Shown one piece after another: positions 8,120 through 63,875 of a stretch of DNA of 64,000 nucleotides (the stretch's first letter is position 1; each line of letters starts with the position of its first letter). A program made the position numbers and the translations under genes. The DNA comes from Sphaerolaimus hirsutus (lineage: Eukaryota; Nematoda; Chromadorea; Monhysterida; Sphaerolaimidae), in contig OZ038454.1 in the NCBI GenBank assembly GCA_964036195.1, positions 19,702,315-19,766,314 of the forward strand, written 5' to 3'. The notes under the pieces were generated by a model. The model saw nothing but the letters and a program-made list of their open reading frames with translations, ran no database searches and had not been told where the DNA came from.

Positions 8120-9179
8120 ACTTCTTCTAAAAACAAATTGGAAAGATTTTTGCGTGTGTTGGTAGCGGTGAACTATCATCGATAATGGGCGTGCGCACAC
8201 TAGTTTACCGCCAGACTTTGGTAAACTCATAAATCGGCTTTCCATGCTTTTGAGTTTACTGGAATGAGTTTTTTGGAAGCTCCATCAACTGCAGTTGCCA
8301 GATAGGTCATTCTGGTAAACTCAAATGCGTTCACAGCCCATTTATGAGTTTACCAAAATCTGGCGGTAAAGTAGCGTGCGCAGCGCCATTGCGTACTGCC
8401 TTCAAAAATTACATGCAGACCGTTCCCTTTCCGTTTTCTGTTGACACAACGATATTAAACGCCTAAACATCAATCGTAAATATGTAACGAATATCTTCAA
8501 AATTTAATAGAGTACAAGATCACAACATAATGACGTGTGCTAAAAATCACGAATAGACTCGGTTATTCTCCAAATTCAATTCAGATAACGACATGCAGCT
8601 AGCTGCCCGACGGAGCCTGAAACATTGTTGCACCAGATTTCATATAACACCCTTTAAAAATAGGAAAAAAGCAATTTTCCAAAATCCTCAAATGTGTCAA
8701 TTGCGAACGCAGCCGCACCCAAGCCGCATTTACTCCCAGAGGTATTACTGCTTCGCACAAATTGAACTGAAACACAGACAACAAACGGACCAGGGCCTAG
8801 CTCTCGCTCAAAACTAACACAAATGAATGGCCACAACAATTCAGAGAATTTCCCTACATTAGTATTTATGTAAAAATCGCTTTTTTCAACATTTGTTTTG
8901 AAAATGTTAAACATGAAACATTTCGAAAAAAAACATTCGTCAGTACCTAATTTTAACACTTCATTCCGACATTTGACATTTCTGCCAAACAAAGCGTGTC
9001 ATTTACTTACATTTGTCTGAATCAAATTGGCACCGGGCCCAGACGTGCATGCATGGAAATCCATGCGTGGAGTACATACTTTCACTCGAACAACACAGTG
9101 ACTCCTAAAAGCCAGCCAAAACTTCGGGATGGGAGATAACTGCGGTGCAGTGCGTGCACACGCGCGCGCGTGTGCAGTG
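8120..9179. other. No gene seen; inverted-repeat elements
   Basis: About 8190-8392 is an inverted-repeat element with ends GCACACTAGTTTACCGCCAG and the inverted CTGGCGGTAAAGTAGCGTGC. The remainder is unassigned. Confidence 0.4.
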
Positions 9180-11766: not shown

Positions 11767-12063
11767 AAATTATATCATTTGTTAATTGATTCAGCAGTAT
11801 TTTCAATTAGGATCTATCAGGCACGAGATTGAAAACCTGAGACGCGATCTCACACCCTGTCTTTTCAAATGTCAACTGATTGTGACAACAACAGTGATAA
11901 GGGAAAGTGACAAATAAAATTCTTGCCATTTTTGACTAGACGATTGATCTATAAACTTTCTAAATCTTACGCCTTAAACAAAATACAAAATTAGCCCCAG
12001 CTGAAGTTTTACTCGGCACTCGACACAGACCTACAGCTCAGACCATTGACTGAACTCCATGGG

Positions 12064-12768
12064 TAGGGTTGGAAAAAAAAACGTTTTTTTTTAACTCGAT
12101 GTTTTTTTAAAAAAAACAACGTTTTTTTAAAAAAAACAACGTTTTTTTTAAAAAAAAAACGTTTTTTTTTAAAAGCTCCCAGATATGACCTAGTGTCAAC
12201 ATATATAGGTATATCAGACACTGGCAATACTCTGTGATGTTAAATATGACCATATAATGGCTGTGGAGCCATGGGATAGCATTATAAGTGGTGATTTGTG
12301 TCAAAAATATCCATTTTTCGTCGACATATCGTTCGTATATCGCCTTATAGTCGAATGTTCATGACTTCAGGTAAAGTTTGGCACGGAATGGTGATCAAAC
12401 AAGGTTATAAAAGGAGGTTGTTACTTTGGGAGTGAAGTTACACACTGTGGAGGTACATGGAAGCACATTACCTCAATATTATATATTACAGCAACATATG
12501 TCGGCTTATTCACCCATGGTAGCACATAGAAATGGATGTTTTGATACTAAAAATGCAACAAAACCAATGAAAACAACCACCAATTTCAATTTGTGTGTGA
12601 AATTGCGCGCTTGCGCGCAAAAATTTTGCAAAATACCTAGTGCTTAGTACTAAAAATTTCGGCCGATGTTTTTTTTTAAAAAAAAACATTTCGGACGTCA
12701 TGTTTTTTTTTTAAAAAAAACGTTTTTTTTTTAAAAAAACGTTTTAAAAAAAACATCGGCCAACCCTA
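12064..12768. mobile_element. Non-autonomous hAT-type element (TAGGGTTGG ends), 705 bp
   Basis: Ends are TAGGGTTGGAAA and GGCCAACCCTA. The 8-bp target duplication TCCATGGG is intact on both sides (12056-12063, 12769-12776). Long A/T homopolymer hairpins (AACGTTTTTTT) lie just inside both ends. The interior (AGCTCCCAGATATGACC onward) is shared with the elements at 49948 and 52941. Confidence 0.9.
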
Positions 12769-12775
12769 TCCATGG

Positions 12776-12918
12776 GACACTCCCAGACCCTGTAAAAAGC
12801 CCTGTAAAATGTCAAATGTCATGCAAAGTGTCAATTTGCCATTTTGCAGGGCATTTTACATGACTTTTGACACTTTGCATGGCATTTGACATTTTACAGG
12901 GTCTGGGAGTGGCACCAG
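12776..12918. mobile_element. Inverted-repeat element, CAGTCCCAGACCC family (copy B), abutting an exon
   Basis: Left end ACACTCCCAGACCCTGTAAA, right end TTTACAGGGTCTGGGAGTGG then CACCAG. The final CAG of the element is the predicted splice acceptor of the EGF exon that starts at 12919. Confidence 0.75.
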
Positions 12919-15322
12919 GTTCCCAATTCGCGCAGACCGCTCTGGGCGGGTGCTCGTGCGGCCAGCACTACGCGGGCCCCGTGTGCGAGTACGTCCATTG
13001 CGCCAACAACGGCACCAGGACCGAGCGGAACACGTGCCTGTGCGACGATGTCAGGATTTCCGGCTTCTTTTGCGACCGTTTGGCGTGCTCAAACGGGGGG
13101 CACGCGCCTAGTGGATGGAGCAAGTGAGTAGAGTCACGGAAATTAGTGAACCTTTAGTGATTGATTTTGAAAGTTTCGTTTTTATTGGAACTGGGATTGC
13201 ACCAGAGAACTACATTTTGCCGATTTTACAATTCAGGCAGTTCCGAGTCCTGTAAAGTGTAAAGACAAGTGTCAAATGTCATGTAAAAAAGCAATAATAA
13301 AAAAATCAAAAATTACTACTTAAATTTTGACATTTTGCATTTTGACAATTGACAAGTTACATTGACATTTGACACTTGACTTTACAGGGCCCGGGCCCGG
13401 CAGCCCTAGTGATCCCTCACACCAAACCTACACCCGCACGCGCAGATGCCAGTGCCCCCCTCTGTACACGGGTCGATTTTGCGAGCAACCCAGCGCGGCC
13501 CTGATCGCCCTGTGCACCATGGCCACGCTCAGCGGCATTTTGCTGCTCGCCGCTCTGGCTTTGTGGAGGATTAGTGCCGGCAGGGCTGACCGGGCTAATA
13601 AGAGGACCACTGGTTGGGGTAGTGAAAGGTGGCGGTGAACCGTCGCGCTAGTTGAGCGATGGAAAATTAGTGACCTTGTCAATTGACAAAAAAAAAACGG
13701 GGTAACATTGCCGGCCCGCACTAGTTGACACATGTGTGTCAACAGGTCTGTGTCAACTCAGATTTCAGCTTCACGTGTCGCAGAACGATCTTCCAACGCA
13801 CTCGCTGTAACATTGCATTTTTCAACATTTCCGCATGTGCATTTGGAGATCGGTCTGCGACACGTGAAGCCGAAATCTGAGTTGACACAGACCAGTTGAC
13901 ACGCAGATGTCAACTAGTGTTGACCGCCATTGTAAGAAGTTACATACAATTCACGTGCCATCGGCAGCTTCACCTGCAACGTCCATTATCACTCATCATG
14001 CGGAATTGGCACTGTTCTGGGGCCAGTTCCGCAAAATGAGAAGTGAGAAGTGAAATGGCAAAGGCGAAGTAAAAGCGCAAAGGCGAAGTGAAATGGCAAG
14101 TATATTGAGAAGGAAATTGGCAAAAGCGAAGGGAAATTAATGCGAACGGAAATTAATTTATATGTTTTTTACTTCGCTTTTGCCAATTCACTTGCTATTT
14201 CATTTCGCCTTTGCGCTTTTACTTCGCCTTTGCCATTTCACTTGTCACTTCCCATTTTGCGGAATTGGCACTGTTCAGGATTATAAGTACTGCCTCCCAT
14301 AATTAATTTTGACCCAAAAAATCCACAAATTTCTACACGACCAAACCCATATCCACTGTTCGAGCGATATGGAATGATTCAAAGTCTAAATGTTTCTATC
14401 GCCCGCAGCACTGCGCGTCGGAGAGAACTGCGAGCGGGAATACATGGAAAGCGCAGATGAGTTACATGCCAACAGTGAGCGCACAAGCCACGCCCAGAGC
14501 TGTCTGAGGGGGGGGGGTACAATTTGGGGGGTATTCAGTGATGGGGGTGTTGCCATTCGGTTGTTGCATTGGAGAAATTTGATGCCGTTCAAGTTGTGTT
14601 GAGGTTTATGGTCGTGGTTATGGCCAAAATTTTGTATGACCAAATAATCCCCCAGTGACTAGGTGGTGAATAAAAATTATTTTTATTTATTTATTTTACA
14701 TGGCCGATCTGGCCGGCTGGCTTTGGGGCCCAATATCTCGGTCATTTTTACCGATTGTGATGATTGATCCATCACAATTGGTTAAAAAATGATCTTGTTA
14801 TTGAGCTACAAATTCAACCGGCCAGATCGGCCATGTAAAATGAATGTGTTTTTATAGACACCCCCTAATCTCGGGACCGGCGGATTTTTTGGGGAAAACT
14901 AAAAAAATGTTCATAGCTCCGACCAGAAACAGCAACTTGAACAGCATCAAAAACGGCCAATTCACAGCCGAACAGGAACACGCCAATCCCTGGAGACCCC
15001 TCTAAAATGCCACCCCCGCGGGCAGCTCTCACCACCCCCTTACAACAATCGCTCAAACAACAGCCAACTCGACGCAGGCGCCCCCCTCAGCACGAGCTGG
15101 CCGCAGCCGCACGCCGCCCCGCCGCCCAGCTACACTTACACGCCGATGGTGCAGCCGCCGCCCTACACGGAACGGTGCGCGTCGCCCGCCGAGGCGTTGG
15201 TCAGCTTGGTGAGCACGAGCAGCGCGGCCGACCCGAACGCGTTGGACAGTAGACGAGGGGATAGAAACAGCGCAAATAATGGGTGGATGCTGGCTAAGGT
15301 GGAAGGACCCACTGCTGTGTGA
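12919..15322 (+). CDS. EGF-domain single-pass membrane protein with PPxY cytoplasmic tail (5' end not found)
   Basis: Four phase-compatible exons: 12919-13123, 13404-13618, 14409-14474, 14976-15322. The first two encode Cys-rich EGF-like modules (CSCGQHYAGPVC, CLCDD...GFFC, CQCPPLYTGRFC). A hydrophobic helix follows (ALIALCTMATLSGILLLAAL), then a basic stop-transfer stretch, giving a type I membrane protein. The last exon encodes a disordered Pro/Ser/Asn-rich tail with two PPPY motifs (SPPPYNN, QPPPYTE), typical ligands of WW-domain ubiquitin ligases, and ends at TGA 15320-15322. The two EGF exons are sure; the 66-bp exon and the exact start of the last exon are inferred from intron phase. 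Upstream exons, including a signal peptide, were not located. No ortholog is named. Confidence 0.65.
13234..13403. mobile_element. Inverted-repeat element, GGCAGTTCCGAGTCC family (copy C), in EGF-gene intron
   Basis: Left end CAGGCAGTTCCGAGTCCTGT, right end ACTTTACAGGGCCCGGGCCC then GGCAG. It runs up to the acceptor of exon 13404, so the element end supplies the AG of the intron. Confidence 0.6.
13711..13925. mobile_element. Inverted-repeat element (CTAGTTGACAC ends), copy 1
   Basis: CACTAGTTGACACATGTGTG at the left and CGCAGATGTCAACTAGTG at the right. Inner arms GTCTGTGTCAACTCAGATTT and complement fold back. A homologous copy lies at 57120-57315. Confidence 0.65.
14027..14275. mobile_element. 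Inverted-repeat element, GGGGCCAGTTCCGCAA family
   Basis: Starts GGGGCCAGTTCCGCAAAATG and ends TTTTGCGGAATTGGCACTGT. The two halves (GAAGTGAAATGGCAAAGGCG and complement) form a near-perfect foldback. It lies in the intron between exons 13618 and 14409 of the EGF gene. Confidence 0.8.
14690..14840. repeat. Short foldback (CATGGCCGATCTGGCCGG)
   Basis: TTTTACATGGCCGATCTGGC at 14695 is repeated inverted as GCCAGATCGGCCATGTAAAA at about 14820, giving a ~145-bp hairpin inside the last intron of the EGF gene. Confidence 0.7.
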
Positions 15323-24762: not shown

Positions 24763-40021
<15,259 letters not shown>

Positions 40022-41246
40022 TTTGCGGCGGAAATGCGGCGCGGCGGCGACAAAAAATAACAACGGCAGCGAAGGCCGACGCAATAAACGCTAGATTCTA
40101 CTTTCCGTCCGGCTTGGCACGCTGCCCGCTTGCGCTTGGGAAGGTTTTTAGGCTTGACCCCGCCTTGATGATGAACTCGGGTAGGGGTCGGCGGCGGAAT
40201 GGATCAAAGGTTGAATGCCATGGGATTAACTCTGGACTCACTCGGGATTATTGCTCAGATTGGGTGTGGTGGCTTTAATTGCTGTGTATAAATACTTATA
40301 TTTGGCAATATTTGATGTGCTCTGCTGTGATGACAAAGTTTCAGCACTATAACCTCACCATAGCCCGAGATATAGCTTCCGAAGTAAAATAAAAAAATTG
40401 ATGGCTAACTTGACCGGGAAGGTGTTTATGATAAGAACAAGTTTACTCCGTTTTTTACATGCAATTTCAATTCTCACTCTTCAAATGTTTTTTTTACATA
40501 TCCACTTACGTCAAAATTTTGTAGATGTATTTATAAAATGTATTTTTGTAAAAGTCTGAATTCACCACTGTCAACTATCTATTCTGATGTAACCTTTGAA
40601 TGATGTAACAAAAAACGGGAATGATCTACGCTAAATGTACGCTTAATCCGATCGCATTCAGCCTTTGATCCATTCCGCACAAAATTGTTGGCATGAAAAG
40701 TGTCAATTCAATCGGCGCAATTAAATACGCGTGCAGTGTGGGGGTCGTGTTTTTCATTAGAAGTCAACCACATGCGTGCAATTTGGTCAGCAGACGCGAC
40801 TCTTTATAAAAAACTTCCCGCGTGCAACCCAAGCCAAGCCATAGGCCGGACGGAAAATACAGTCAATCCAATAAACAGGGAACGTGCGTTTTGAAATTTC
40901 TTTTATTTTGAGAAGGTTGGAAGTATACGGAGAATGAAAACGATAATTTTTTAGCTGCTATTTTCTGCGTACAAATAGGATTAGAGACACGTTTCAACTC
41001 GGAATTGTGAAAGTCGTTTGTTTAAGCCCAAAGTGTGAAAATCTGAGCATGAACTTGGCCATCGACGTGATCACGTTTTCAAACTGATAATTTGTTTCGT
41101 ATAGATCCTGCGATTTCGTATAGATCAACGCCGCTGTGCGAGAAATTTCCATCGGAATTGCATCATCACGCTGATTGCAAGTCTTTCGATCAGTGTTTTC
41201 CCCACTGCTCGATTATGTCCCAATTTGGGGGGTGGCGTCTCCGTGC
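40022..41246. other. Intergenic region upstream of mtHsp70; likely promoter, no gene seen
   Basis: The first 150 bp upstream of the ATG are GC-rich, as expected for a housekeeping promoter. I found no clear heat-shock element array and no TATA box that stands out. The rest has no exon-like open frame. Confidence 0.35.
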
Positions 41247-42544: not shown

Positions 42545-42745
42545 GGGTTGACTTGAGTTTTTAGGGGCTGAGTTTACAATTCAGGGTTGAGTTGATGGGT
42601 GTTTATAAATTAGGGTTGAGTTGACAGAAGTTTAAAAATAAGGGGCTGTTGACACAAGTTCACAAATTAGAGGCCGAGTTTATGGGAGTTGAGTTGATGG
42701 GTGTTTGCCAAATTAGGGGCTGAGTTTATGGGAGTTAACAATAAC
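42545..42745. repeat. Degenerate ~45-bp tandem repeat (TTAGGGGCTGAGTT)
   Basis: Units containing AAATTAGGGGCTGAGTTTA or GGGTTGAGTTGATGGG recur about five times. The same motif reappears at 45440-45490, on the far side of the satellite, so it brackets the array. Confidence 0.7.
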
Positions 42746-42829
42746 ATTACCATAATCCTTAAGTGAGGCCCCCGGGGCTAAAAAATATAAATTGTGATAT
42801 AATGCATTTGTGGGTTACTGCTTACAATG

Positions 42830-45420
42830 ATTTGAAATATGCACTCCATTCTGACAGTACATTACAATAACCCTGAAATTGAACCCAAAATGGGGCCAAA
42901 ACTTTCAAATTGTGAAATGATGCATTGTGGGTTTCTAATTGCACTGATTTGATATATAATGCACTCCATTTTGACACTACATTACCATAACCCTGAAAAT
43001 GAACCACTGGGGCAAAAAACTTTCAATTTGTGAAATGATGCAATTTTGGGTTTCTGATTGCACTGATTTCAAATTTAGGTTTCTGATTGCACTGATTTGA
43101 TATATGCACTCCATTGACACTACATTACCATAACCCGTTAATGAACCCATGGGGCCAAATACTTTCAATTTGAGAAATGATGCATTTTTGGGTTTCTGAT
43201 TGCACTCATTTGAAATATGCACTTCATTTTGACACAACATTACCATAACCCTGAAAATGAACCACTGGGGCCAAAAACTTTCAATTTGTGAAATGATGCA
43301 TTTTTGGGTTTCTGATTGCACTGATTTCAAATTTGGGTTTCTGATTGCACTGATTTGATACATGCACTCCATTTTGACACTACATTACCATAACCCTCAA
43401 AATGGACCCATGGGGTTAAATACTTTCAATTTGAGAAATGATGCATTTTCGGGTTTCTGATTGCACTCATTTGAAATATGCACTTCATTTTGACACTACA
43501 TAACCATAACCCTAAAATGAACCCCCTGGGCCAAAAACTTTCAAACCATAAAATGATGGATTTGTGGGTTTCTGAGTGTAGCGATTTCAAATATGCCCAG
43601 GGCTTAAAAAATTAGAAATTGTGAAATGATTCAATGTGGGTTTCTAATTGCACTGATTTGAAATATGCACTCTGTTTTGACACTACATAACCCTGAAAAC
43701 TACATAACCATAACCCTGAAAATGAACCTCTGGAGCCAAAAACTTTCAATTTGTGAAATCATTCATTTTTGGGTTTCTGATTGCGCTGATTTCAAATTTG
43801 GGTCTCTGATTGCACCAATTTGATATATGCACTCCATTTTGACACTACATTACCATAACCCTAAAAATGAACCCATGGGGCCAAATACTTTCAATTTGAG
43901 AAATGATGCATTTTTGGGTTTCTGATAGCACTCATTTGAAATATGCACTTCATTTTGACACTACATTACCATAACCCTAAAATGAACCCCCTGGGCCAAA
44001 AACTTTCAAACCATAAAATGATGGATTTGTGGGTTTCTGAGTGTAGCGATTTCAAATATGCCCAGGGCTTAAAAAATTAGAAATTGTGAAATGATTCAAT
44101 GTGGGTTTCTAATTGCACTGATTTGAAATATGCACTCTGTTTTGACACTACATAACCCTGAAAACTACATAACCATAACCCTGAAAATGAAGCTCTGGAG
44201 CCAAAAACTTTCAATTTGTGAAATCATTCATTTTTGGGTTTCTGATTGCACTGATTTCAAATTTGGGTCTCTGATTGCACCAATTTGATATATGCACTCC
44301 ATTTTGACACTACATTACCATAACCCTAAAAATGAACCCATGGGGCCAAATACTTTCAATTTGAGAAATGATGCATTTTCGGGTTTCTGAAAGCACTCAT
44401 TTGAAATATGCACTTCATTTTGACACTACATTACCATAACCCTAAAAATGAACCCCCTGGGCCAAAAACTTTCAAACCATAAAATGATGGATTTGTGGGT
44501 TTCTGAGTGTAGCAATTTCAAATATGCCCAGGGCTTAAAAAATTAGAAATTGTGAAATGATTTGATGTGGGTTTCTAATTGCACTGATTTGAAATATGCA
44601 ATCCATTTTGACACTACAAAACCCTGAAAACTACATAACCATAACCCTGAAAATGAACCTCTGGAGCCAAAAACTTTCAATTTGTGAAATCATAAATTTT
44701 CAGGTTTCTGATTTCACTCATTTGAAATATGCACTTCATTTTCACACTACATTACCAGAACCATAAAAATGAACCCCCTAAGCCAAAAACTTTCAAATCA
44801 TAAAATGATGCATTTGTGGGTTTCTGATTGTAGCGATTTCAAATATGCACTCCATTTTGACACTACATTACTAAAACCCTGAAATTGAACCCCTAGACCC
44901 AAAAATTTCTTATTGTGAAATGATGCATTTTGCAGGTTTCTAATTGCACTGATTTGAAATGACTCAATTTCAACTCTACATTACTGTAAGCCTTTAATTG
45001 AACCCATGGGGCTAATAAATTAGAAATTGTGAAATGATGCATTTGTGGCTTTTTGATTGCCTTGATTTGAAATATGCACTTCATTTTGACACTACATTAC
45101 CATAACCCTGAAAATGAACCCCCAGGGCCAAAAATTTTCAAATCATAAAATGATGTGTTTGTGGGTTTCTGATTGTAGCGATTTCAAATATGCACTCCAT
45201 TTTGACACCACATTACTAAAACCCTGATAATGAACCCCTGGGCACAAAAACTTTCAATTTGTGAAATGATGCATTTGTGGGTTTTTTATTGCACTGATTT
45301 GAGATGTGCACTCCATTTCTACTCTACATTACCATAACTTTTTAAGTCTAACCCCTGGGGCTAAAAAATTGAAAATTGTGAATTGATGCATTTGTGGATT
45401 GATGATAGTGATTTTTTGAA
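42830..45420. repeat. Satellite array, ~116-bp monomers, ~466-bp higher-order unit
   Basis: Monomers share TATGCACTCCATTTTGACAC, TACATTACCATAACCCT, AATGAACCC, CTTTCAATTTGTGAAATGAT and GGGTTTCTGATTGCACTGAT. Between about 43520 and 44460 groups of four variant monomers repeat as a block: the variant CCCCCTGGGCCAAAAACTTT recurs at 43522, 43987 and 44453, a spacing of about 465 bp. Divergence rises toward both edges. Open frames on the minus strand only follow the monomer period. Confidence 0.93.
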
Positions 45421-45487
45421 ATATTCATACCATTTTCCAAATTAGGGGCTGAGTTTACAGGAGTTTCCAAACTAGGGGCTGTGTTTA

Positions 45488-47317: not shown

Positions 47318-49897
47318 CTAAAGTATCATATTTTCTCCAATGGTATTAATTGTAGAGAACCACAAAACCCGACCGAAGGTCGGAGAGAATCCTGCTAGTC
47401 TGTAAACAAAAGGCAAACCGTCTTCTGGTACTGAGTGTGCAGCATGCAATGAGTCATTATTACCAGTTCTTGTTTGGATGGAGTTCGTCTCACCCTCTGA
47501 TTGCACTACTTTTTCTCCAGACTCCTTCAAATCTTTCTCAAAAATGACTAATGGCCCATCTACAAATTCTTTATCTTGTGGGTCGGCATTACCAGCTGTA
47601 GATTTTACATTGTGTGCATTGAGAACATTTTGCTGACTGAACTGTTCCTGTACTTCTTCCTTCCATTGCTTCAATTCATGCATTTCCTGCATTTTTATAT
47701 GTATACGCGGTGGACATCACACTTAGTATGATAACCTACCATAACCTATCTGAATAATGAACCAAAACTTTACATTTTTTCATCATAATATGTCGTTTTT
47801 ACTATGAAATAATTAATCGTGAAATTTATCACAAAATTTTATTCATAATATTATGGTAGGTTTTTATACTAGGTGTGCTGTCCGCCGAGTATACTTTGAA
47901 ATTTGTCAGTTTATTTTAAAATTGATCTTCAAAACAAGACTGACCACATTCTGTTGGCTTGCACTGTTAAGTGGTTGATGTGCCATTTCCATAAATGCTG
48001 CTCCATTAACCTCATCATCAAATGTGGGAAAGTTTATGCTTGCAATATCACTTGCTGATAATCCTGGCAGAACATCCAATATAATCATATCATCATCAGT
48101 ATTACCAGGATCGGATATTGGCACTGGTATTGTAATTGGATGGACTGTCAGGTCAGCAGTCAGTGCCTGCATTTGTAAGCATGCTTTGTCACTGACATTG
48201 GGCCCACACGTGCTAGTTGACATTGCAACTTCATGTCAACTCAATGTCAACTAAATAACACAAAAAATTATTAGAAGTATCACACTTAACAGAAACTATA
48301 AAAAATTAAGTGTCATGATGTAAAATTAACTATCAGATAGAAAAGTTGAAATCACAGACTTCACTAAACTTTAGTTGACACAAATTAAGTTGACATCCAC
48401 TGTGTGTGGCGCCAATACCTGACACGAACTGACAAAAGGCATGAAAGGGTAGAATGTCACCTTTCTTTCCTCCGGTGTAGTCACTTTCACAGGGGGCACT
48501 CTTTCTTCGTCTGGTTGCACAATCACTGCTGCATGGCCAAAATCTGTGGTATGGCCAGGTGCACTGACTCCAGGTGGCCCCACATTGCCTGGTGGATTGG
48601 CACCAGAAATATGTTTTAGTGCAAAAAATGACTGTTGAGTTTCTGGCACTGTTGGTGGATTTGCCTGAAGTTTAGATTGAACAGGGCATTTTTAAGTACA
48701 CATTATGCTGTATAAAACAGAAGTCAAACCTACAACAACAGTGTTGGTTTCTCTGGCAGCTTGTGGAAGGTGTGTCTCAAAAAAAGTTGTTGTGATGGAA
48801 GGATTATGGTGTTTTGAAGTTGATTGTTCAACAGCTTGAGGGTCACTCAGTATTTGAAAGTTTTCTCTTTCTACTTCATGAGTGTTTTCCACAGCAGACT
48901 GAGTTGTGCTGGAAGGTGCACTTGTTTCTCTGGAAGTAATGCGCTGCACCACTGGCATTGGTGAAATTGCCTGAAATGTTTGTTGCATGTCATGTGGTTT
49001 CGACATCATTTGGATTACTGAAAGACACTGCTCAAGTAAACCCACTTCAAGTAGTGCTCAAGTAACAATACTCTGTGCCTATGTATGCCCGGGTGCTCAA
49101 GTCTGGCCCCCGCACTGGTTCTACATGGGCACTGCAGGGGGTCCAGTTTTGGTCCTGCAGGCTGCAGCCCCCCTCCAATGCTTCAGATATCTATCTAGCG
49201 ATTATACCCCCTCTTTTCATCTAAACCGTATTCATATTTATGTATATTGAACACCCACAAGCCCCCTCCAAATTTTTGTGCTATATGTCTTCTGGAGGAG
49301 CGATTTGATCTTAGTCAAAAGGCCGAGCAGCCATTTACTATCTATATGAACCCGCGGAGGGGTCAAAATTTATTTAACCCCTGGGGCACCGGGTATTGCT
49401 ACTTGAGCACTATGTTTACTTGAGCACAGGTGTTTAGTTAACTGAACCTACAAAACTATTCTGGACAGAATTCGTTTCCCGAATGGGTTCCGCTAGGACG
49501 CTTCTTTCAAACACATGGTTTCTGATGGTGGGATTCTGAAGCTCCACTTTTTGTTGTTGTTGTCGCGACTCATCACCGCGAGTGTCAACCAGAATTTTGG
49601 TTATTTCCTCTGCCAACTCGTGAGTTCTCTCCAAAACAAAATTAGGTAGTGGTGTTCTCCTCGGTGCAGTTGTTGTGGATCTGGTTGTAGTTGAAGTTGT
49701 AGTCGTAAAAAATACCTGTCGTTCTTCTGGCGGTTGTTGTTTTTCCACTGGGTCAACAAAAACTGTGAGCTTGTCATCGTCTGCGAACTCATTCAAATCA
49801 GTGTCAGTTCGTTCGAATTTCTGCTTGTCAGTCCTCTCAGAGTTTTCAGCCTCAAACATGGCATTTGCCAGCTCAAATGGAACCATTCTTCCGCGAC
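47318..49897 (-). CDS. Ser/Thr/Pro-rich low-complexity protein, five 3' exons
   Basis: Exons 49452-49897, 48734-49027, 48461-48664, 47936-48166 and 47318-47686 chain with GT/AG sites to about 514 residues; every junction between them is phase 0. Contents in order: FELANAMFEAENSER, an acidic stretch, Thr runs (TTTTSTTTRSTTTAP), Gln-rich segment; Ser/Thr-rich segment; Pro/Gly-rich segment (NPPGNVGPPG); acidic segment with ISDPGNTDDD; and a charged last exon ending at a stop at 47318. No domain or signal peptide is seen; the 5' exon was not found. The last ~25 codons lie in sequence shared with the repeat flank at 46421, so the true end may differ. Mucin-like extracellular or intrinsically disordered protein; function unknown. 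Confidence 0.5.
47701..47894. mobile_element. GTATAC(T/G)CGG inverted-repeat element forming most of an intron
   Basis: GTATACGCGGTGGACATCAC at the left and CTGTCCGCCGAGTATAC at the right. It fills 194 of the 249 bp between exons 47936-48166 and 47318-47686. Homologous to 26497 and 58308. Confidence 0.85.
48199..48413. mobile_element. GGGCCCACAC-type inverted-repeat element forming most of an intron
   Basis: GGGCCCACACGTGCTAGTTG at the left and CCACTGTGTGTGGCGCC at the right. Flanks are ATT and AAT. It fills 215 of 294 bp between exons 48461-48664 and 47936-48166. Confidence 0.75.
49029..49432. mobile_element. TGCTCAAGTAA-ended element forming an intron
   Basis: TGCTCAAGTAAACCC at the left and GTTTACTTGAGCAC at the right. 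A further TACTTGAGCAC/GTGCTCAAGTAAC pair lies inside each end. On the minus strand the element's end TTACTTGAGCAG is the splice acceptor of exon 49027. It contains a fragment of the CTATCTATCC repeat (49190-49380). Confidence 0.7.
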
Positions 49898-50198
49898 CTG
49901 TGGGGAGAAATGTGGAAGCGTTGCCGCAACTTCTTTGTGGTTTTGACTAGGGTTGGAAGAAAAACGTTTTTTTTTTTTTTTAAAACAACGTTTTTTAAAA
50001 ATAAAAAACGTTTTTTTTTAAAGCTCCCAGATATGACCTTGTGTCAACATAAACCTATAGGTATATCAGACAGTGGCAATACTCTGAGATGTTATATATG
50101 ACCATATAATGGCCCTACACACACTAGTTTTCACCCTGACATGTGTGAAAACTGAAATGGCCACATGGCGACATTCAGCCTACTCTTATTGTATGAAA

Positions 50199-50646
50199 TA
50201 CCGTATTACCTCCAATATAAGGCATCCCTCTAATATAAGGTACCCTCTAATATAAGGTATAACTTTTGGCTATTTTGAACGCGCCGAAATAAATATAAGG
50301 TACCCTCTAATATAAGGCATACCTCTAATAAGGCACAGCTGGCTGCGTGCCAAAACACGCAAAATAATAAAAACGGTTGCTAAACATAGCGGAAAATGAA
50401 GAAAATGGTGCTGAAGGGCACTGCGATGACTCTTCGTCGACTTCCGCCGCTGAAAAGTGTGTCAGTTTACGACGGCACTATTCACTCGAAGAGAAACTTT
50501 AAATTGTTGACCAGACGAAAATCTGGCGGAAAAAATTGAAGGTACCCTCTAATATAAGGTACCCTCTAATAAAAGGTATAACTTTTGGCTTTAAAAATCT
50601 GACGAAAACAATATAAGGTATACCTTATATTAGAGGTAATACGGTA
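50199..50646. mobile_element. TACCGTATT-family element with ATATAAGGTACCCTCTA repeats
   Basis: TACCGTATTACCTCCAATAT at the left, ATTAGAGGTAATACGGTA at the right. The inner 18-bp unit CTCTAATATAAGGTACC occurs about eight times near both ends. It is nested within a CACACTAGTTTTCACC foldback (50110-50800), which lies within the hAT element. Confidence 0.85.
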
Positions 50647-51184
50647 TGTGTTTTAGTTTTCAAATTTTCAAATTTTCACTTTTCTTAATTACAATTCCAA
50701 TTTAATTTAAATTAAATCATTCAACCGTGTTCATTAATTTGCATTTAAAAAAATTTCAGTTTTCACACGAAGTCACAGTGAAAACTAGTGTGCGCAGGCA
50801 CAATGTCTGTGGAGCAATGTGATAGCATTATAAGTGGTGATTTGTTCAAAAATATCCATTTTTTGTTGACATATTGTTCGTATATCGTTTTATAGTCGAA
50901 TGTTTGTGACTTCAAGTTTGGCACGGAATAGTGATCAAACAAGGTTATAAAAGGAGGTTGTTACTTTGGGAGTGAAGTTACACACTGTTGAGGTACATGG
51001 AAGCACATTACCTCAATATTATATACTACAGCAACATATGACGGCTTATTAACCCACTGTAGCACATATAAATAGATACTTTGATACTAAAAATGCCACA
51101 AAACCAATGAAAACAACCACCAATGTCAATTTGTGTGTGAAATTGCGCAATTGCGAAAAAATTTGCAAAATACCCAGTGCTTAG

Positions 51185-51963
51185 CAGAGTTGCAAAAACG
51201 TATTTACGTTTACCCGAAATACCCAGTTATTCGGGTATTTATACTTACGTTTACGTTTACGTTTTCATAAAATACCGTTACGTTTTGTTACGTTTTCCTG
51301 GCCGAAATACCCGGGTACCAGAGAAAACGTAAAAAGCGTTGTGAGACCAAAAATTTTTTTGCAAAATGTAATTTCCGTCATAAATTTCCGACAACTTTAA
51401 AAATTTTGCGCGCCAGCGCACACTTTTCCTCCACAGAAGCCGTATTTTCAAAATAGGTATATTCAATATTCAAATTATTCTATAGTTAGACCCCACCTCC
51501 GTGCAGAGTATTACGTATTACTTCCCAAACTCGAATTGTGCGAAATGCTTATAAAAAAAGTCAGCGGATGCTGTTATTTAGTGGCTTTCATGGATTGATT
51601 TTGAGCAATTTGAAGATCAAATGTTTAATCAACTCTATGAATCACTATAATATAAATTTTTTGTGACATAACACTTGGGAAAACGTTGACAGAATGTGAA
51701 AAATTGATAGAAAAACCGGAGAAAAAATATAAGGGCAGCTTCCAAAAGACGGTGTCTCCATAATAGAAAGTCGGTGAAAAATAGAAGGGCGCCCTTCTAT
51801 TAGATGAAACACGGTAATAATTTTTTTACGTTTACGTTTTATTTTACGTTTTCCCAGATATTTTAAAAATACCTTACGTTTTAGTATTTATACTTTCATT
51901 TTGGAAAAGGTATTTACGTTTACGTTTACGTTTTCCAAAAATACCAGTATTTGACCAACTCTG
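51185..51963. mobile_element. hAT-type element (CAGAGTTG ends) nested in another hAT element
   Basis: CAGAGTTGCAAAAACG at the left, GACCAACTCTG at the right. 8-bp duplication GTGCTTAG (51177-51184) versus GTGCTTAA (51964-51971), one mismatch. ACGTTTACGTTTTC words fill both halves. Related to 9180 and 63100. Confidence 0.85.
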
Positions 51964-52446
51964 GTGCTTAATACCAAAAATTTTGGTCGATGTTTTTTTT
52001 ATTAAAAAAACATTTCGGATGTCATGTTTTTTTAATAAAAAAAACGTTCTTTTTAAAAAAACGTGTTAAAAAACATCTGCCAGCCCAAGTTTTGACAGAA
52101 GCATTAGGCTCTGTGCACACTAGTGCGTCATAAAAATTTGAGGAACTCATAAATCTGTTTTGAATACATTTGAATTTACCAGAATGAAGAGTCTGTCAAC
52201 TACAGTTTACAGCAATCAAAAACCATTCATTGTGGTAAAATAAAATCTGTTGAATACATATTTATGAGTTTCCCAAATTTCAATCAGTCGGGAAACAGAT
52301 GAAAAGAACTAGGAGAACTGACATTTTTCAACCCCCGGGGATTCCCCGATCCCCACCGACAATAACATGCCAACATGTTTGCCATTAAGATTCACCATAG
52401 ACCCATAAGCAGTACACATTTCACATCACTAAAAAAACACAAAAAA

Positions 52447-52923
52447 ACACAAACCCACCACTATCCGATCGACTGGGAAAGGCGAATCCCAGAGGCGCGA
52501 AGGGGCCAGGCGGCGGCGTACGGATGATAGGCTGGCGTTGAGACACTCTGATTGTCGGTTTTGGTGGCAGCGCTGGGGGCAGTCCCAGACCCGTTATTTC
52601 CTCTGCCAACTCGTGAGTTCTCTCCAAAACAAAATTAGGTATTGGTGTACTCCTCGGTGCAGTTGTTGTAGATCTGGTTGTAGTTGAAGTTGTAGTTGTA
52701 AAAAATACCTGTTGCTGTTCTGGCGGTTGTTGTTTTTCCACTGGGTCAACAAAAACTGTGAGCTTGTCATCGTCTGCGAACTCATTCAAATCAGTGTCAG
52801 TTCGTTGGAATTTCTGCTTGTCAGTCCTCTCAGAGTTTTCAGCCTCAAACATGGCATTTGCCAGCTCAAATGGAACCATTCTTCCGCGACCTGTGGGGAT
52901 AAATGTGGAAACGTTGCCGCAAC
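52447..52923 (-). pseudogene. Duplicated Thr-rich exon fused to duplicated terminal exon
   Basis: The right part (to about 52923, after a CCCCACAG acceptor) is nearly identical to exon 49452-49897 as far as LAEEIT. There it runs directly into GGGTCTGGGACTGCCCCCAG, the terminus of the CAGACCC element, and then into a near copy of the terminal exon 53938-54049. The element itself is missing, so the intron that once separated the two exons has lost its donor. Read through, the frame continues into a Pro-rich tail. Likely a by-product of unequal exchange and not an active gene, though expression cannot be excluded. Confidence 0.6.
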
Positions 52924-52940
52924 TTCTTTGTGGTTTTGAC

Positions 52941-53562
52941 TAGGGTTGAAAAAAAAACGTTTTTAAAATAATAATAAAAACGTTTTTTTTAAATAAAAAA
53001 CGTTTTTTTTAAAGCTCCAAGATATGACCTTGTGTCAACATATATAGGTATATCAGACAGTGGCAATACTCTGTGATGTTATATATATGACCATATAATG
53101 TCTGTGGAGCCATGGGATAGCATTATAAGAGGTGATTTGTGTCAAAAATATCCATTTTTCGTTGACATATTGTTCGTATATCGTTTTATAGTTGAATGTT
53201 CCTGACTTCAAGTTTGGCTCCGAATAGTGATCAAACAAGGTTATAAAAGGAGGTTGTTACTTTGGGAGTGAAGTTACACACTGTTGAGGTACATGGAAGC
53301 ACATTACCTCAATATTATATACTACAGCAACATATGACGGCTTATTTACCCATGGTAGCACATAGAAATGGATACTTTGATACTAAAAATGCCACAAAAC
53401 CAATGAAAACAACCACCAATGTCAATTTGTGTGTGAAATTGCGCAAAATAACTAGTGCTTAGTACTAAAAATTTCAGTCGATTTTTTTTTATAAAAAAAA
53501 CATTTCGGACGTTGTGTTTTTTTAATAAAAAAAAACGTTTTAAAAAAACATCGGCAACCCTA
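52941..53562. mobile_element. hAT-type element (TAGGGTTG ends), 622 bp
   Basis: 8-bp duplication GTTTTGAC at 52933-52940 and 53563-53570. Ends TAGGGTTGAAAA and GGCAACCCTA. The same target sequence as 49948 shows that the two are copies of one insertion multiplied by segmental duplication. Confidence 0.9.
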
Positions 53563-53937
53563 GTTTTGACAGAAGCATTAGGCTCTGCGCACACTAGTGC
53601 GCCATAAAAACTTGAGGAACTCATAAATCTGTTTTGAATACATTTGAGTTTACCAGAATGAGGAGTCTGTCAACTACAGTTTACAGCAATCAAAAACCAT
53701 TCATTGTGGTAAAATCAAATCTGTTGAATACATATTTATGAGTTTCCCAAATTTCAATCAGTCGGGAAACAGATGAAAAAAACTAGGAGCACTGACATTT
53801 ATCAACCCCCGGGGATTCCCCGATCCCCACCGACAATAACATGCCAAAATGTTTGCCATTAAGATTCACCATAGACCCATTAGCAGTACACATTTCACAT
53901 CACCCAAAAAAACACACAAAAAACCACAAACCCACCA

Positions 53938-55225
53938 CTATCCGATCGACTGGGAAAGGCGAATCCCAGAGGCGCGAAGGGGCCAGGCGGCGGCGTACGG
54001 ATGATAGGCCGGCGTTGAGACACTCTGATTGTCGGTTTCGGTGGCAGCGCTGGGGGCAGTCCCAGACTCTGTAAAAAGCCATGTAAAATGTCAAATGTCA
54101 TGCAAAGTGTCAACGTCATGGAAAATGCCTGGTAAAATAGCGAATGTACGTTTGTCATTTTACCGGGCATGTTACATGACTTTTGACACTTTGCATGACA
54201 TTTTACATTTTACAGGGCATTTTACAGGGTCTGGGAGTGGCACCTGGTGTTGGCGGTGTCGTTGTCGTCGGCGGTGGTCGGGTACGCCTTGGACGCCGGG
54301 TCGTGGCTGCATGTATTTATGTGCGATTTTTGGGGGCAGTACCTCTGCTCATATTTAGCTTCACCTTCTCGTAATCACCTTTTTACTTATCCACTTGCGG
54401 AACTGCCAGTGGACAAAATCTCAGTCGCTAATAGCGCCACACACACCGGATGTCAACTGTTGCGGTGTCAACTCGATTTAAGTTCAATTTAGATCGCAGG
54501 ACAAGTTTCAAGTGCACGTACAGCAATGTTGATGCATTTGAACACGGTTTAGCAACCTAACAACTAAAATCTTTATGAAAAACAGTCGGCCCAGTTGACA
54601 TCCGGATGTCAACTGGGCCGACTGGTTTTCATTAAGATTTTAGTTTATGGGCCGCGAAACCGTGTTCAAAAATTATGACACAGTTTATGTGCACATGGCA
54701 ATATTAATACCTCATCGACTTTGCCGCATGTGTCCTTGAGAATTGTCCTGCGACGCACAGAATAGTGTCATAACCGAAACGATGACACCGAAACCAGGGG
54801 CCAGTTCCGCAAATTGAGAAGTGAGAAGTGAAATGAGAAGTGAATTGAGAAGGAAATTGGCAAAAGCGAAAGGAAATCAGTTTTTATTTTTACTACGCTT
54901 TTGCCATTTCACTTCGCTTTTGCCAATTTTCTTCGCATTTGTCACTTCACTTCTCACTTCTCAATTTGCAGAACTGGCACCAGTTAACATCCAGTGTGCG
55001 TGGACTGGCACCATTGTGACAAAAGGTTCTCCCATTTGCAATTAATGTAAAATAATGAAAGCAAAATCGTCATGGTAAATTATCCAACTGCACGCCACTC
55101 CAACCGACTACTCTCAGTGGTGGTAGTGGTAGTTGTTGTCGATGTAGTTGTGCTCGGTGCCGCAGTGGTTGTCGGTGGCGTCGTGGGTACTTCCTCTGGT
55201 TCGCCAACGTCGTTGTGGATCATAC
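53938..55225 (-). CDS. Thr-rich protein, three 3' exons
   Basis: Exons 55105-55225, 54244-54306 and 53938-54049 join in phase 2 at both junctions. The first encodes MIHNDVGEPEEVP then a Thr/Pro run; the second a short acidic Asp/Asn/Thr segment (PASKAYPTTADDNDTANT); the third AATETDNQSVSTPAYHPY and a stop at 53938-53940. The intron 54050-54243 is exactly one inverted-repeat element. The 55105 donor (CG|GTTGGA) is weak. No 5' exon was found. The first exon enters in the same phase as the exon at 49897, so both may be alternative or duplicated continuations of one gene. Confidence 0.5.
54050..54243. mobile_element. CAGTCCCAGACCC-family element (copy D) that is an entire intron
   Basis: Plus-strand ends CTGGGGGCAGTCCCAGACTC and GGTCTGGGAGTGGCACC. 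Read on the gene strand it starts GTGCCACTCCCAGACCC and ends GTCTGGGACTGCCCCCAG, so its terminal bases are the GT donor and AG acceptor. Inner arms ACATTTTACATGG and complement fold back. Confidence 0.8.
54425..54625. mobile_element. Inverted-repeat fragments around AGTTGACATCCGGATGTCAACT
   Basis: ACACACCGGATGTCAACTGT at the left is matched by CAGTTGACATCCGGATGTC at about 54592-54611, itself a perfect short palindrome. Probably related to the TAGTTGACAC elements at 13711 and 57120. Confidence 0.45.
54798..54985. mobile_element. GGGGCCAGTTCCGCAA-family element
   Basis: AGGGGCCAGTTCCGCAAATT at the left, AATTTGCAGAACTGGCACC at the right. Near-perfect foldback of GAAGTGAGAAGTGAAATGAG and its complement. 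It lies in the intron between exons 55105 and 54306. Confidence 0.85.
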
Positions 55226-58900: not shown

Positions 58901-59503
58901 TGCATTTCCCGGACTACAAATTCTTAGTGCCCAATTTGAGGGGGGGTATTTCGAGGGGGGTATTTCGAGGAAATACGGTTCATACATATAGGTATACGGT
59001 ACTATTAAATCGAAAAATCCATGTTTAACACCAAAACCCTTCCCCACCAGTGCCACGACGCTGCGGATCGGATACATGGCATCAACATCTTCACACACGA
59101 CCGTGAACAGGGTGTCGTCCCTATTGTTGCCCTGGCTGAACACGTGCCTCATTGCCAACTCAACCAGGGGGCAGTCCCAGACCCTGTAAAGTGCCCTGTA
59201 AAATGTCAAATGTCTTTCAAAGGGACAAAAGTCATGTAAAATGCCCTGCAAAATGGCAACTCGGTTGCCATTTTGCAGGGCATTTTACACAACTTTGACA
59301 TTTTGCATGGCCTTTGACAGTTAACAGGATTTTACAGGGTCTGGGACTGGCACCAGGCCATGTCTCTGTCTGCACTCGAGACGGAATGGGTCGAATGGGA
59401 TCGATTGCATAGTGTGTCTTGAGCTGGTTACTAAATCCCATTGGCATACTGCCAATGTCAGTGCTATGAAAATGCGCAGGTAGAATTGGTTTAGAGACGG
59501 CAT
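55979..59503 (-). CDS. Secreted cysteine-rich protein resembling dermatopontin, five exons
   Basis: Exons 59354-59503, 59048-59158, 57996-58117, 56382-56519 and 55979-56033 join in frame to 191 aa. Residues 1-28 are a signal peptide (FYLRIFIALTLAVC core). The body has about nine further cysteines in an arrangement like the dermatopontin repeat: a Cys, then a hydrophobic V-S-x-NNRDD segment ending in VVC, then DCNWSK...LCDDWRTYVAGMSRVDGA leading to a CC pair, then a shorter third unit ending KYCQM. In dermatopontin, C-W, G-x-x-S and DR/CC elements recur similarly; this is pattern recognition, not an alignment. An extracellular-matrix role is inferred. Intron 1 is almost entirely an inverted-repeat element; introns 2 and 3 hold other elements. 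Confidence 0.75.
56654..57047. mobile_element. TACCGTATT-family element with CACCCGGGTG blocks
   Basis: TACCGTATTTCTCCGTGTAA at the left, TTACACGGAAAAATACGGTA at the right, a perfect inverted pair. Several AACACCCGGGTGTT palindromes lie inside. It lies in intron 3 of the dermatopontin-like gene. Confidence 0.9.
57120..57315. mobile_element. TAGTTGACAC inverted-repeat element, copy 2
   Basis: CCATTAGTTGACACGCGTGT at the left, ACCAGTTGACAGTTGACAC at the right, arms ACTCAGATTTCAGCTTCACG and partial complement. Homologous to 13711-13925. Confidence 0.65.
58308..58534. mobile_element. GTATACTCGGCGGACA element, copy 3
   Basis: GTATACTCGGCGGACATCAC at the left, GTGCTGTCCGCCGAGTATA at the right. 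It lies in intron 2 of the dermatopontin-like gene and is collinear with 47701-47894. Confidence 0.85.
58722..58979. mobile_element. TACCGTATT-family element (CCTCGAAAT type)
   Basis: TACCGTATTTCCTCGAATTA at the left, TATTTCGAGGAAATACGGT at the right. It shares GGGGGTATTTCGAGG words with 7040-7225 and 15365-15465, which look like fragments of this subtype. Confidence 0.85.
59159..59353. mobile_element. CAGTCCCAGACCC-family element (copy E) nearly filling an intron
   Basis: Plus-strand ends CCAGGGGGCAGTCCCAGACC and GGTCTGGGACTGGCACCAG. On the gene strand the GTGCCAGTCCCAG end is the donor of exon 59354. The acceptor lies about 6 bp beyond the other end (CCTGGTTGAG). Intron length is 195 bp. 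Confidence 0.75.
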
Positions 59504-61290: not shown

Positions 61291-61544
61291 AGTTGTTAGC
61301 AGTTTATGTAAACAGCTTAGGGCACAAAATTCAATTCAGTAGATTTCGTGCCGATCCAAAACTCACTTTTAAAAAATTTAATGAAGGGATCATATTTCTT
61401 ACGCAGATTTTTAGGTTGCTCAATATTTATCTCACTTTTAAACGGGGTTGGCAAAATCTCAGAAAAAACGAAAATGGACAAGAATAAAATAGATGGTCAA
61501 TTTCAAAATAAAAATTGCATAAAAATTCGAATTTTTGGGGTTTC

Positions 61545-61795
61545 AGGATCGGGATTGGGGTTTCGAGATCGGGATTGGGGTTTCGAGATCGGGATTGGGG
61601 TTTCGGATGGGGATTGGGGTTTCGGGATGGGGATTGGTGTTTCGGGATGGGGATTGGGGTTTCGGGATGGGGATTGGTGTTTCGGGATGGGGATTGGGGT
61701 TTCGGGATGGGGATTGGTGTTTCGGGATGGGGATTGGGGTTTCGATATCGGGATAGGGTTTTCGGGATGGGGATTGGGTTTCAGGGTAGGGATTG
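61545..61795. repeat. 20-bp minisatellite, about 12 copies
   Basis: Units GGGATGGGGATTGGGGTTTC with a GGTGTTTC variant in alternate copies and GAGATCGGGATTGGGGTTTC at the left. Because 20 is not a multiple of 3, all three plus frames are open with the same GWGLGFRDGD-type peptide. Confidence 0.92.
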
Positions 61796-62330
61796 GAATT
61801 TTGAGATTTCAGAATTGGTGTGTTTGCGATCAGGACCCCATTTGAACGTTACTGGAAGTTCATTCTCTCCAAAAAGATAATTACGCGGAATTCGCAGGTT
61901 ACAGTATTTTCATGGGCGAAATTTCGTTTTCATTTTACAGCCACAATTACAAAAGCTATAAACGACGACTGTAGTGAGTGCTACAACGAACGTTGACGTT
62001 ACAACTGAAAATCAGCTTGAAAAAGGTTGACGGGAGGAAGTATACTTCAACCATTGATGAATCAAATAGTACACTAATATTTCAAATTCCAGGAAACAGT
62101 AAAACAACGAAGGAAGCAAAATTATCACAGTTCGCGAAATTATGATTGATCACTGGCATAAAAAACATGTAACACTGTCGCTGCACACTCCAGTTTACAA
62201 CTTTAAATTTACGACTCCAAAAATCCAATTACAGTAAACTAAAAAACCATTCAAAGTTTATTTATGAGTTGACTAAATTTTATATTTACCGGCAGCAAAC
62301 TCCTGTGCGCAGCGCAACAAAAATAACAGG

Positions 62331-63875
62331 TCAATCGTGCGCATTTGTGCAGACGGCTTTTTCAGCAGCCTCCAGCCACATGTCGACCTGAGAAAATTGA
62401 CTGGCGATAGAGGATTTCAAATGGTAAACACTTACGTCCACCACATTTTTGGTAGGAAATATTTAAATGGGAAGCCGAATTCACTTGTTTTTTCACAACT
62501 CGGGAAATTCTTCAGATATTTATGTTGTTTATTTAGTAGACATTCATTTTCTGTAACCTTCGATAGTTTCAGGTTCGGTATTAGGGATAGCCAGCGCTTT
62601 TTTTTCAAGCGTTTTTGTTTTAAAAAGGCTGCTTTTTTTAATAAAAAAATTTTCTGCATTTTTTAATAAAAATCGCTGGCAAATTTTTTTCTACCTATGC
62701 ACTGGGTATTTTGTAATTTTTTGGCGCGCAAACGCGCAATTTCACATGCACATTACCACTGGTAGTTGTTTTCATTGATTTTGTGTATTTTTAGTGTCAT
62801 TCTTGCATGGTATCATGTAATAATAAGCTGTGATATGTAAGTGTAGTACATAATATCAAGCCAATGTGGTTCCACATACTTCTACAGTGGGAAACATCAG
62901 TCTCAATGTATTAGCCTTCTTTTATAACCTTATTGGCCCCATACACGCTAGTTGACATTTGGTGTCGATGTCAACTAGCGTGTGTGGGCCCATTAAAGCA
63001 CTATTTCATGCCTCACTTTACTTGAACTCATGACTATTTGACAAATAAGAATTTACATAACGAGTCAACATTGGATTTTTTGGCATAAAACTCCACTTAT
63101 AATGCGTATACTCGCGTACTGCGTAAATACGTTTACGTCTCCCCCCGAAAAAAAACCCCGGTACGCCCTTACTCGCGTACTTTTTGAGAGTAAGCGAGTA
63201 CCGAAAACGTATTTTAAGGGGACATAAAAGTCATTTTGACAGACAGAAAGTGACAAACATCAGGATATTTTCCCAAGAAATATGTATCAGGAGAAAAACC
63301 CCCACATGTTCGATGTATGCCAACGTCAAAATTCAAAAATACTGACTGTTACGTTATCTATGAGAGAAAATACTAAGTTTGACGTTTTCTGCGAGAAAAA
63401 TACCCACTTTTACGTTTTCCCAGGAAAAAAGTATTTTACTCAGTTTAACGTAGTGTAAAAGTAAAAAATTTTACTTTACGTTTTCTGTACTTAGCTGTGA
63501 GTAAAATACAAATACTTTACGTTTATATTGAAAAAAGTTCAGTACTTTTAACAACTCTGCTCGGCACTTAAAAATATTTAAATACCTGAAATATTTAACT
63601 CTTCAAATAAAAAGAACCTCAGTTCACTAATAAGAACGCTGGCCGACCTGTTCGCCCCTGGCACCCCTGAGCACATTGATCGCGTCCATACCACCAGCGA
63701 GCGCTCTGAACTTTTCCGCCGCCGCCCTTTCAATGCCATCAGCAGCGTTGTCCACCCCGTCGCCGCGGTGCAGCGCTCGCATCGCGTACACGAGCAGGGT
63801 GCGCGCCCGCCGCCGCACGGCCGACAAGTTCGTGTCGCGGCAGTCGATCGCGGACGCCAGAGACGCGTTGGCACA
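62331..63875 (-). CDS. Unrecognised protein, last two exons (5' part beyond right edge)
   Basis: Exon 63648-63875 (after a CTTGGCAG acceptor, ending at CAG|GTCGGC) and exon 62331-62387 (TTTTCTCAG acceptor, TGA at 62331) join in phase 0, giving the C-terminal 94 residues. The sequence is helical and Ala/Arg-rich with CANASLASAIDCRD, a basic RRRART stretch, LVYAMRALHRGDG, and VDMWLEAAEKAVC near the end. Without splicing the first exon would run on to a stop at 63627. I do not recognise the family. The intron holds several transposon remnants (62580-62690, 62935-62991, 63100-63559). Confidence 0.6.
62935..62991. mobile_element. 57-bp minimal inverted-repeat element
   Basis: GGCCCCATACACGCTAGTTG at the left, CAACTAGCGTGTGTGGGCCC at the right, flanked by ATT on both sides (62932-62934, 62992-62994). 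It is almost only two termini of the family at 30169 and 35407 with no interior. Confidence 0.85.
63100..63559. mobile_element. hAT-like remnant (ACGTTTTC words, CAACTCTG end)
   Basis: Ends TTAACAACTCTGC at 63549-63561 like the right ends at 9674 and 51963. The interior has TACTCGCGTACT and ACGTTTTC words. The left end is not clear. Confidence 0.5.

Follow-up and report, generated by a model that had tools for sequence, protein, structure and literature searches.

The most probable reading of positions 54050-54243 of the window, which is the whole 64,000-nucleotide stretch of DNA that was analysed, is that of an exact, transposon-made intron of the introner type (probability roughly 0.6). Read on the minus strand, the stretch comprises a near-palindromic MITE, element D, together with one of the two CAG triplets that flank it. 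If this reading is right, the spliceosome would use exactly these sites, and the exon would have been continuous before the insertion. The features are listed below, with a slash marking a prospective splice border.

The element and its target site

54050-54243, minus strand: candidate intron of 194 nt, element D plus one CAG target-site copy; donor CAG/GTGCCA, acceptor CTGCCCCCAG/CGC
54053-54243, minus strand: element D proper, near-palindromic MITE of 191 bp
54050-54052, minus strand: target-site duplication copy, CAG on the gene strand, prospective acceptor
54244-54246, minus strand: other target-site copy of D, CAG on the gene strand, end of the upstream segment T2

On the minus strand the 194-nt stretch starts with GTGCCACTCCCAG and ends with GGGACTGCCCCCAG (longer ends: 5′ GTGCCACTCCCAGACCCTGTAAAA, 3′ TTTTTACAGAGTCTGGGACTGCCCCCAG). 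It is 85% self-complementary across 184 columns, and the RNA of D with its flanks (54030-54260) is predicted to fold at -106.4 kcal/mol (z = -13.7 against 200 shuffles). The original prediction held that the intron is one copy of an inverted-repeat element, and the borders of the two do coincide to the base. It also held that the termini of the element supply both GT and AG. The GT does lie in the element. The AG, however, comes from the duplicated target and not from the element, since CTG stands on either side of D on the plus strand (54050-52 and 54244-46). The layout on the gene strand is ..ACAC CAG/GTGCC....TGCCC CAG/CGCTGCC.., with one extra element-derived C before the second CAG. In its self-complementarity and its CWG duplication, D carries the transposon hallmarks expected of an introner, namely inverted repeats and a target duplication. 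It has also been observed that the inverted repeat at 54208-54243 holds CCCT/GTAAAR, which reads YTTTACAG/GG when reversed, so that motifs resembling donors and acceptors are found close to each end, whichever strand is read.

It is proposed that D is a non-autonomous PHIS/NuwaI-like MITE that would have landed on a CAG of a coding exon with its GTGCC terminus upstream. Transposition would have copied the 3-bp target, with the upstream CAG becoming the exon end (CAG/GT). The element would provide the GT, and the downstream CAG, following the C-rich terminus, would serve as the acceptor (CTGCCCCCAG/). Excision of the element and one target copy (194 nt) would leave a single CAG, presumably the sequence before the insertion. 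Intron status would in this way have been gained in one step, at insertion.

Should the mechanism hold, an insertion at a sense CAG with the GTGCC end upstream, and no other kind, would yield an exact GT-AG intron at once. Given random orientation and W, approximately a quarter of exon insertions would be expected to qualify, and insertions at existing CAG acceptors would leave splicing intact. A MITE whose target triplet equals the acceptor CAG would offer a simple rule predicting which insertions become introns, and would bear on the source of new introns in animals.

Related copies had been predicted elsewhere in the window and were found there. The relatives of family 1 (A, B, C and E) were retrieved by a BLAST search of the D copy against the window, C as a short match only. 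A second family (F, G and H), whose termini are the same as those of family 1, was chosen by eye from a terminus scan as paired ends with a common interior.

590-798, minus strand: element A; flanks CCG and CTG; apparently inside a longer intron of a gene on the minus strand
12774-12915, plus strand: element B; flanks CAT and CAG
13237-13400, plus strand: element C, degenerate; between TTCAG (13232-13236) and CAG (13401-13403)
59168-59353, minus strand: element E; flanks CAG and CAG on the plus strand, CTG on the gene strand
54798-54980, plus strand: element F, second family; flanks CAG and CAG
5750-5933, plus strand: element H, second family; flanks CAG and CAG
14020-14271, plus strand: element G, second family; flanks CTG and TGT, or CTG and CTG if the right end lost one base

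The shared 12-base terminus, with at most two mismatches allowed, gives 55 matches on both strands, compared with 7 to 15 on one strand in five base shuffles. Further matches at 10779, 23710 and 55012 are possible ends of related elements. A lone second-family terminus at 14013 lies head to tail with G (14013-14271), the two having GGCACTGTTC in common.

The flanking triplets of seven elements (A, B and D to H) were read at a fixed 11-nt terminus; C was omitted, as its ends are eroded. CWG accounts for 11 of the 14 triplets, or 9 of 12 without D, against a background share of 2.7% of window triplets; binomial values for these flanks are descriptive only, because the boundary was chosen after the copies had been viewed. 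Four of the seven elements (D, E, F and H) have identical triplets on both sides in direct orientation, all of them CWG, compared with none in inverted orientation. This direct orientation marks the CWG as a duplication lying outside the inverted repeat. Moving the boundary by one base on both sides also gives four matches.

Ordinary splice consensus already leans towards CAG at either border of an intron. D alone is therefore no proof of a duplication, and among the copies that do not form full introns E, F and H are the telling cases. The duplication of C is uncertain because each end has lost about three bases (by eye). Two other target lengths were weighed by eye from the flanks. An 8-bp duplication is a misfit for D, E and F, whereas a 4-bp duplication, CCAG, suits E, F and H but does not take in D as one unit with them.

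Coding potential and candidate splicing of the flanks

54244-54306, minus strand: T2, upstream coding-like segment; favoured reading HDPASKAYPTTADDNDTANT; the 5′ limit (acceptor CATGCAG) is a guess
53938-54049, minus strand: P, downstream coding-like segment; favoured reading AATETDNQSVSTPAYHPYAAAWPLRASGIRLSQSIG, then a stop codon

The flanks were scored with a codon-position model trained on 700 codons from mortalin and EGF exons of the window. The gene that supplied the mortalin part of the training set, a mitochondrial HSP70 (mortalin)-like gene at 33944-40090 on the minus strand, has several introns and many GTG-type donors. For T2, frame 1 of the gene strand scores 12.2, the other two frames -14.0 and -13.5, and the other strand at most 4.8; the score of 12.2 is reached by 0.6% of 1500 random 63-nt windows (best of six frames). 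For P, scored over 54049-53936, frame 1 scores 0.6, a value reached by 18% of 1500 random 114-nt windows, and the others -13.7 and -10.7. The absolute coding signal of P is ordinary and its frame preference is clear. Element D itself gets no more than -9.7 in any of the six frames.

Frame 1 of both T2 and P is also preferred after mortalin-only (556 codons) and EGF-only (144 codons) training. As a control, the mortalin-only model finds the expected frame in all three held-out segments (two EGF exons and segment R, described below), and the EGF-only model misses R, its one held-out control. A codon-usage model selects frame 1 for T2 and P; it misses the expected frame for R+P2 and is undecided for R2.

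Exact removal of D joins frame 1 to frame 1, giving HDPASKAYPTTADDNDTANT-S-AATETDNQSVSTPAYHPYAAAWPLRASGIRLSQSIG and a stop. The flanking exons had been predicted to join in phase, in a Thr-rich reading. They are joined in one codon-favoured frame, but codon composition does not point to the Thr-rich one. The Thr-rich (LPPKP) frame is open over the junction too, and in every test it comes second or last among the three gene-strand frames. Four segments can be strung together in this LPPKP frame into a 356-aa reading that is open and neatly self-repeating; no weight is put on it, as codon composition favours the other frame for T2 and P. The length of open reading frames over rejoined sites is uninformative: the 153 aa obtained at E are reached at 10.6% of 5000 random points, and the longest frame across the site of D lies on the other strand. 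The joined T2 and P have no match in Pfam.

One alternative denies that the flanks are exons of a single gene: T2 or P would be non-coding or otherwise read, and GT, AG and phase would fall together by chance in GC-rich sequence. This would be consistent with the two frames that are both open across the junction, with the missing Pfam match and with the third-position GC of T2, which is matched by 67 of 556 window segments of similar GC. Frame 1 nevertheless leads the other gene-strand frames by at least 11 bits in T2 and in P, and it is this same frame that exact removal joins. The alternative is therefore considered improbable, and T2 and P are treated here as putative expressed exons.

The splice sites available at D were compared through 43 combinations of GT and AG. 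The favoured frame is open and in frame in two of them, namely exact removal and a donor CCT/GTAAAA 18 nt in, and both exits use the target-site CAG as acceptor. The acceptor of D is thus better supported than the donor, and the true border may be 18 nt off, since the inner donor also keeps the frame. Of the 43, four give an in-frame open exit in the Thr-rich frame. Three share the target-site acceptor and differ in their donor (the exact one, or one 18 or 30 nt in), and the fourth goes through an internal acceptor, which works with one donor only and lies beside a TTTTACAG motif. The donor GTGCCA is without the G at +5 that most mortalin donors show (by eye). To judge by homology and by eye, one mortalin exon in the window seems to use the C-rich acceptor CACCCCCAG.

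The region around D contains repeats. The segment 53452-54067 recurs at 51961-52590, and 52593-53100 recurs at 49600-50111.

52459-52590, minus strand: paralogous P copy, with only the last 18 nt of D

It is inferred that D is older than the tandem duplication, because the first repeat reaches only 18 bases into the intron stretch. The paralogue at 52573-52590 was considered as an empty site and ruled out, as the last 18 nt of D are present there and mark a tandem-duplication junction. In the duplicated copy these 18 nt may be coding. The P copies with the 18 nt of the element differ at 2 of 132 sites, compared with 32 of 481 sites and 20 gap columns in the following stretch (Fisher p = 0.018). 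Both target copies of D are intact, while the duplicated following stretch carries those 32 differences.

The neighbouring segment R continues in frame into the paralogous P copy (52459-52590), and does so in the LPPKP frame and not in the favoured one. Its copies have 8 differing sites in 98 codons (3, 1 and 4 at the successive codon positions). The segment is without sign of strong protein constraint, as most of the changed codons (5 of 7) alter the amino acid. As a separate observation, the tandem duplication of approximately 1.5 kb within 49600-54067 fuses exon-like segments in frame (...HELAEEIT/GLGLPPALPPKP...), and its first unit holds an extra stretch with inverted ends at 50114-50798.

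A second alternative is that D is a MITE in an exon of a silent or decaying gene. There would then be no exact splicing, or the internal CCCT/GTAAAR and YTTTACAG/GG would be used, adding residues or shifting the frame. The donor-like and acceptor-like motifs inside the inverted repeat, near both ends, are in keeping with this, as is the internal donor found in one of the two favoured-frame exits and in three of the four Thr-rich exits. Against it, the favoured frame has no in-frame exit through the tested internal acceptors, and the Thr-rich frame has one, with a single donor. D still has both target copies unaltered, T2 and P each favour the frame in which they are joined, and the P copies have changed less than the sequence after them. 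An unspliced or inexactly spliced element is accordingly held to be unlikely, and the exact intron remains the preferred reading.

Gene context of the other copies

Among the eight copies (A to H), D alone forms an exact, whole candidate intron. Of the five family 1 copies in the window, D reaches both splice borders, C one and B possibly one. C lies in an intron of an EGF-like gene whose donor, GTGAGT at 13124, is outside the element. The edge of C appears to be a working acceptor, because 13403 alone of three tested acceptors keeps the EGF-like frame. The EGF exons have matches to EGF-type models below the cut-offs only.

For B, it had been claimed that the copy ends at the acceptor of the exon starting at 12919. 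Its right flank CAG (12916-12918) does adjoin an EGF-like reading from 12919, but this frame also stays open from an internal TTTTACAG that ends at 12899. At the left end of B there is a repeat of about 705 bp (12064-12768), bounded by TAGGGTTGG and CCAACCCTA, with an apparent 8-bp duplication, TCCATGGG (12056-12063 and 12769-12776).

The claim that a copy supplies the donor at 59353 concerns E. The GT is there, but no AG stands at the other end on that strand. E was ruled out as another exact intron: with CTG as its sense triplet it gives no AG, and so has no exact exit. When the acceptors of E were checked by hand, only an internal GCAG kept the frame, and the upstream 60-90 nt do not prefer that frame. 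E is directly upstream of a minus-strand coding-like segment of 195 nt (frame score 10.8), which reads LVELAMRHVFSQGNNRDDTLFTVVCEDVDAMYPIRSVVALVGKG; the 60 nt before E score negatively in all six frames. The joined flanks of E had no protein match in Pfam, and the flanks none in PDB. E, lying straight before a coding-like segment and lacking an exact exit on that strand, counts in favour of the second alternative given above for D.

A lies within an apparent longer intron, with donor AAG/GTGGGT after 922 and an acceptor ending at 450 (by eye). F occupies AT-rich sequence between a Thr-rich segment near 55100 and T2, apparently also in a longer intron (by eye). No gene context is evident around G and H. 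The settings of A and F raise a third alternative, in which D was a MITE inside an older ordinary intron whose remainder was later lost, the match of borders being only apparent. If T2 and P are exons, however, the intron left over beside D amounts to 0 bases upstream and the target copy only downstream. Two exact and independent losses are unlikely, which makes this explanation highly improbable compared with the direct origin of the intron by insertion.

A nematode source had been implied for this DNA and is borne out as most likely. The segment 20629-20850 matches four solved major sperm protein sequences (2bvu, 1msp, 2msp and 1grw; best E 5e-25), all of which we take to be nematode proteins, and the open reading frame around it matches Pfam Motile_Sperm (9.6e-12). 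To our knowledge, so close a form of major sperm protein is confined to nematodes. The broader proposal, that a nematode harbours a population of CWG-targeting MITEs acting as introners, is put forward tentatively; it is possible, though doubtful.

Several further repeats were noted in the window. The inverted repeats at 8188-8387, 13705-13933, 32338-32490 and 62930-62996 carry CACTAGTTGACA-like motifs close to their ends and are possibly another family. A large palindrome of approximately 1.2 kb (27570-28763) is 83% self-complementary. Tandem arrays occupy 42744-45436 (spacing of about 116 nt) and 61515-61847 (about 20 nt), the latter being open as a repetitive peptide in several frames.

Comparison with known transposons and introners

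The NuwaI group of the PHIS superfamily is defined by 5′-CWG-3′ duplications, with termini that usually start with GGG (PMC4482050). D and its relatives fit this group, as PHIS/Harbinger-like MITEs, in their CWG target. Four of the seven elements have the same triplet on both sides, always CWG, at a boundary set post hoc. The left termini begin with GGG in six of the seven elements (TGG in A), and the right termini with GTG in six of the seven (GTT in A). The likeness extends to the CWG duplications, to GGG at the left terminus and to the animal hosts, which for NuwaI are 12 bony fish, a beetle, a crustacean, a mollusc and an anthozoan (PMC4482050). In contrast to the group as described there, the right terminus here begins with GTG, and 20 window ranges compared with Pfam gave no match to the DDE transposase or Myb/SANT protein expected of an autonomous partner. 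These ranges were picked by eye, mainly among 161 open reading frames of at least 90 aa, and since they contain no transposase, the placement in NuwaI is made on ends and target. The available text of PMC4482050 draws no link between NuwaI and introns. The terminus patterns gave 0 matches in viral_contigs (viral) and genome_contigs (bacterial and archaeal).

Within nematodes, a likeness is offered by Tc1, insertions of which in exons of C. elegans are spliced from transcripts. Tc1 splicing differs in being imprecise and in using cryptic sites near the ends of the element; its target is TA, so that no AG can come from the duplication.

In the literature searched, which included few subscription journals, no nematode introner and no CWG-target or NuwaI/Harbinger introner was found among the matches listed. 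A study of intron gain and loss in nematodes names unsequenced DNA as one possible source, with introners cited as an example in the text available (PMC9169325). The introner survey reported introners in 175 of 3,325 genomes, with two animal groups only among animals and land plants (PMC9860276). The stem “nematod” is absent from the main text of that survey in a term search (PMC9860276). What the survey looked for was sets of introns alike in sequence (PMC9860276), a requirement that a single exact case is unable to fill.

The introner elements of Amoebophrya resemble D in having direct repeats of 3-5 nt over the exon/intron borders and inverted repeats capable of forming hairpins (PMC7789003). 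They differ in that, according to the accessible part of that report, they were defined among non-canonical introns, 10% and 31% of which could be assigned to putative MITE families (PMC7789003). The introners of the survey form groups within a genome that are similar up to both borders (PMC9860276), whereas here there is one exact candidate intron. They are nonetheless like D in being non-autonomous and DNA-transposon-like, in their inverted repeats and target duplications, and in leaving the length of the mRNA unchanged (PMC9860276). The likeness includes the proposed division of labour at D, with one splice site taken from the element and the other from the target duplication; both arrangements appear in the legend of Fig. 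2 of the survey (PMC9860276).
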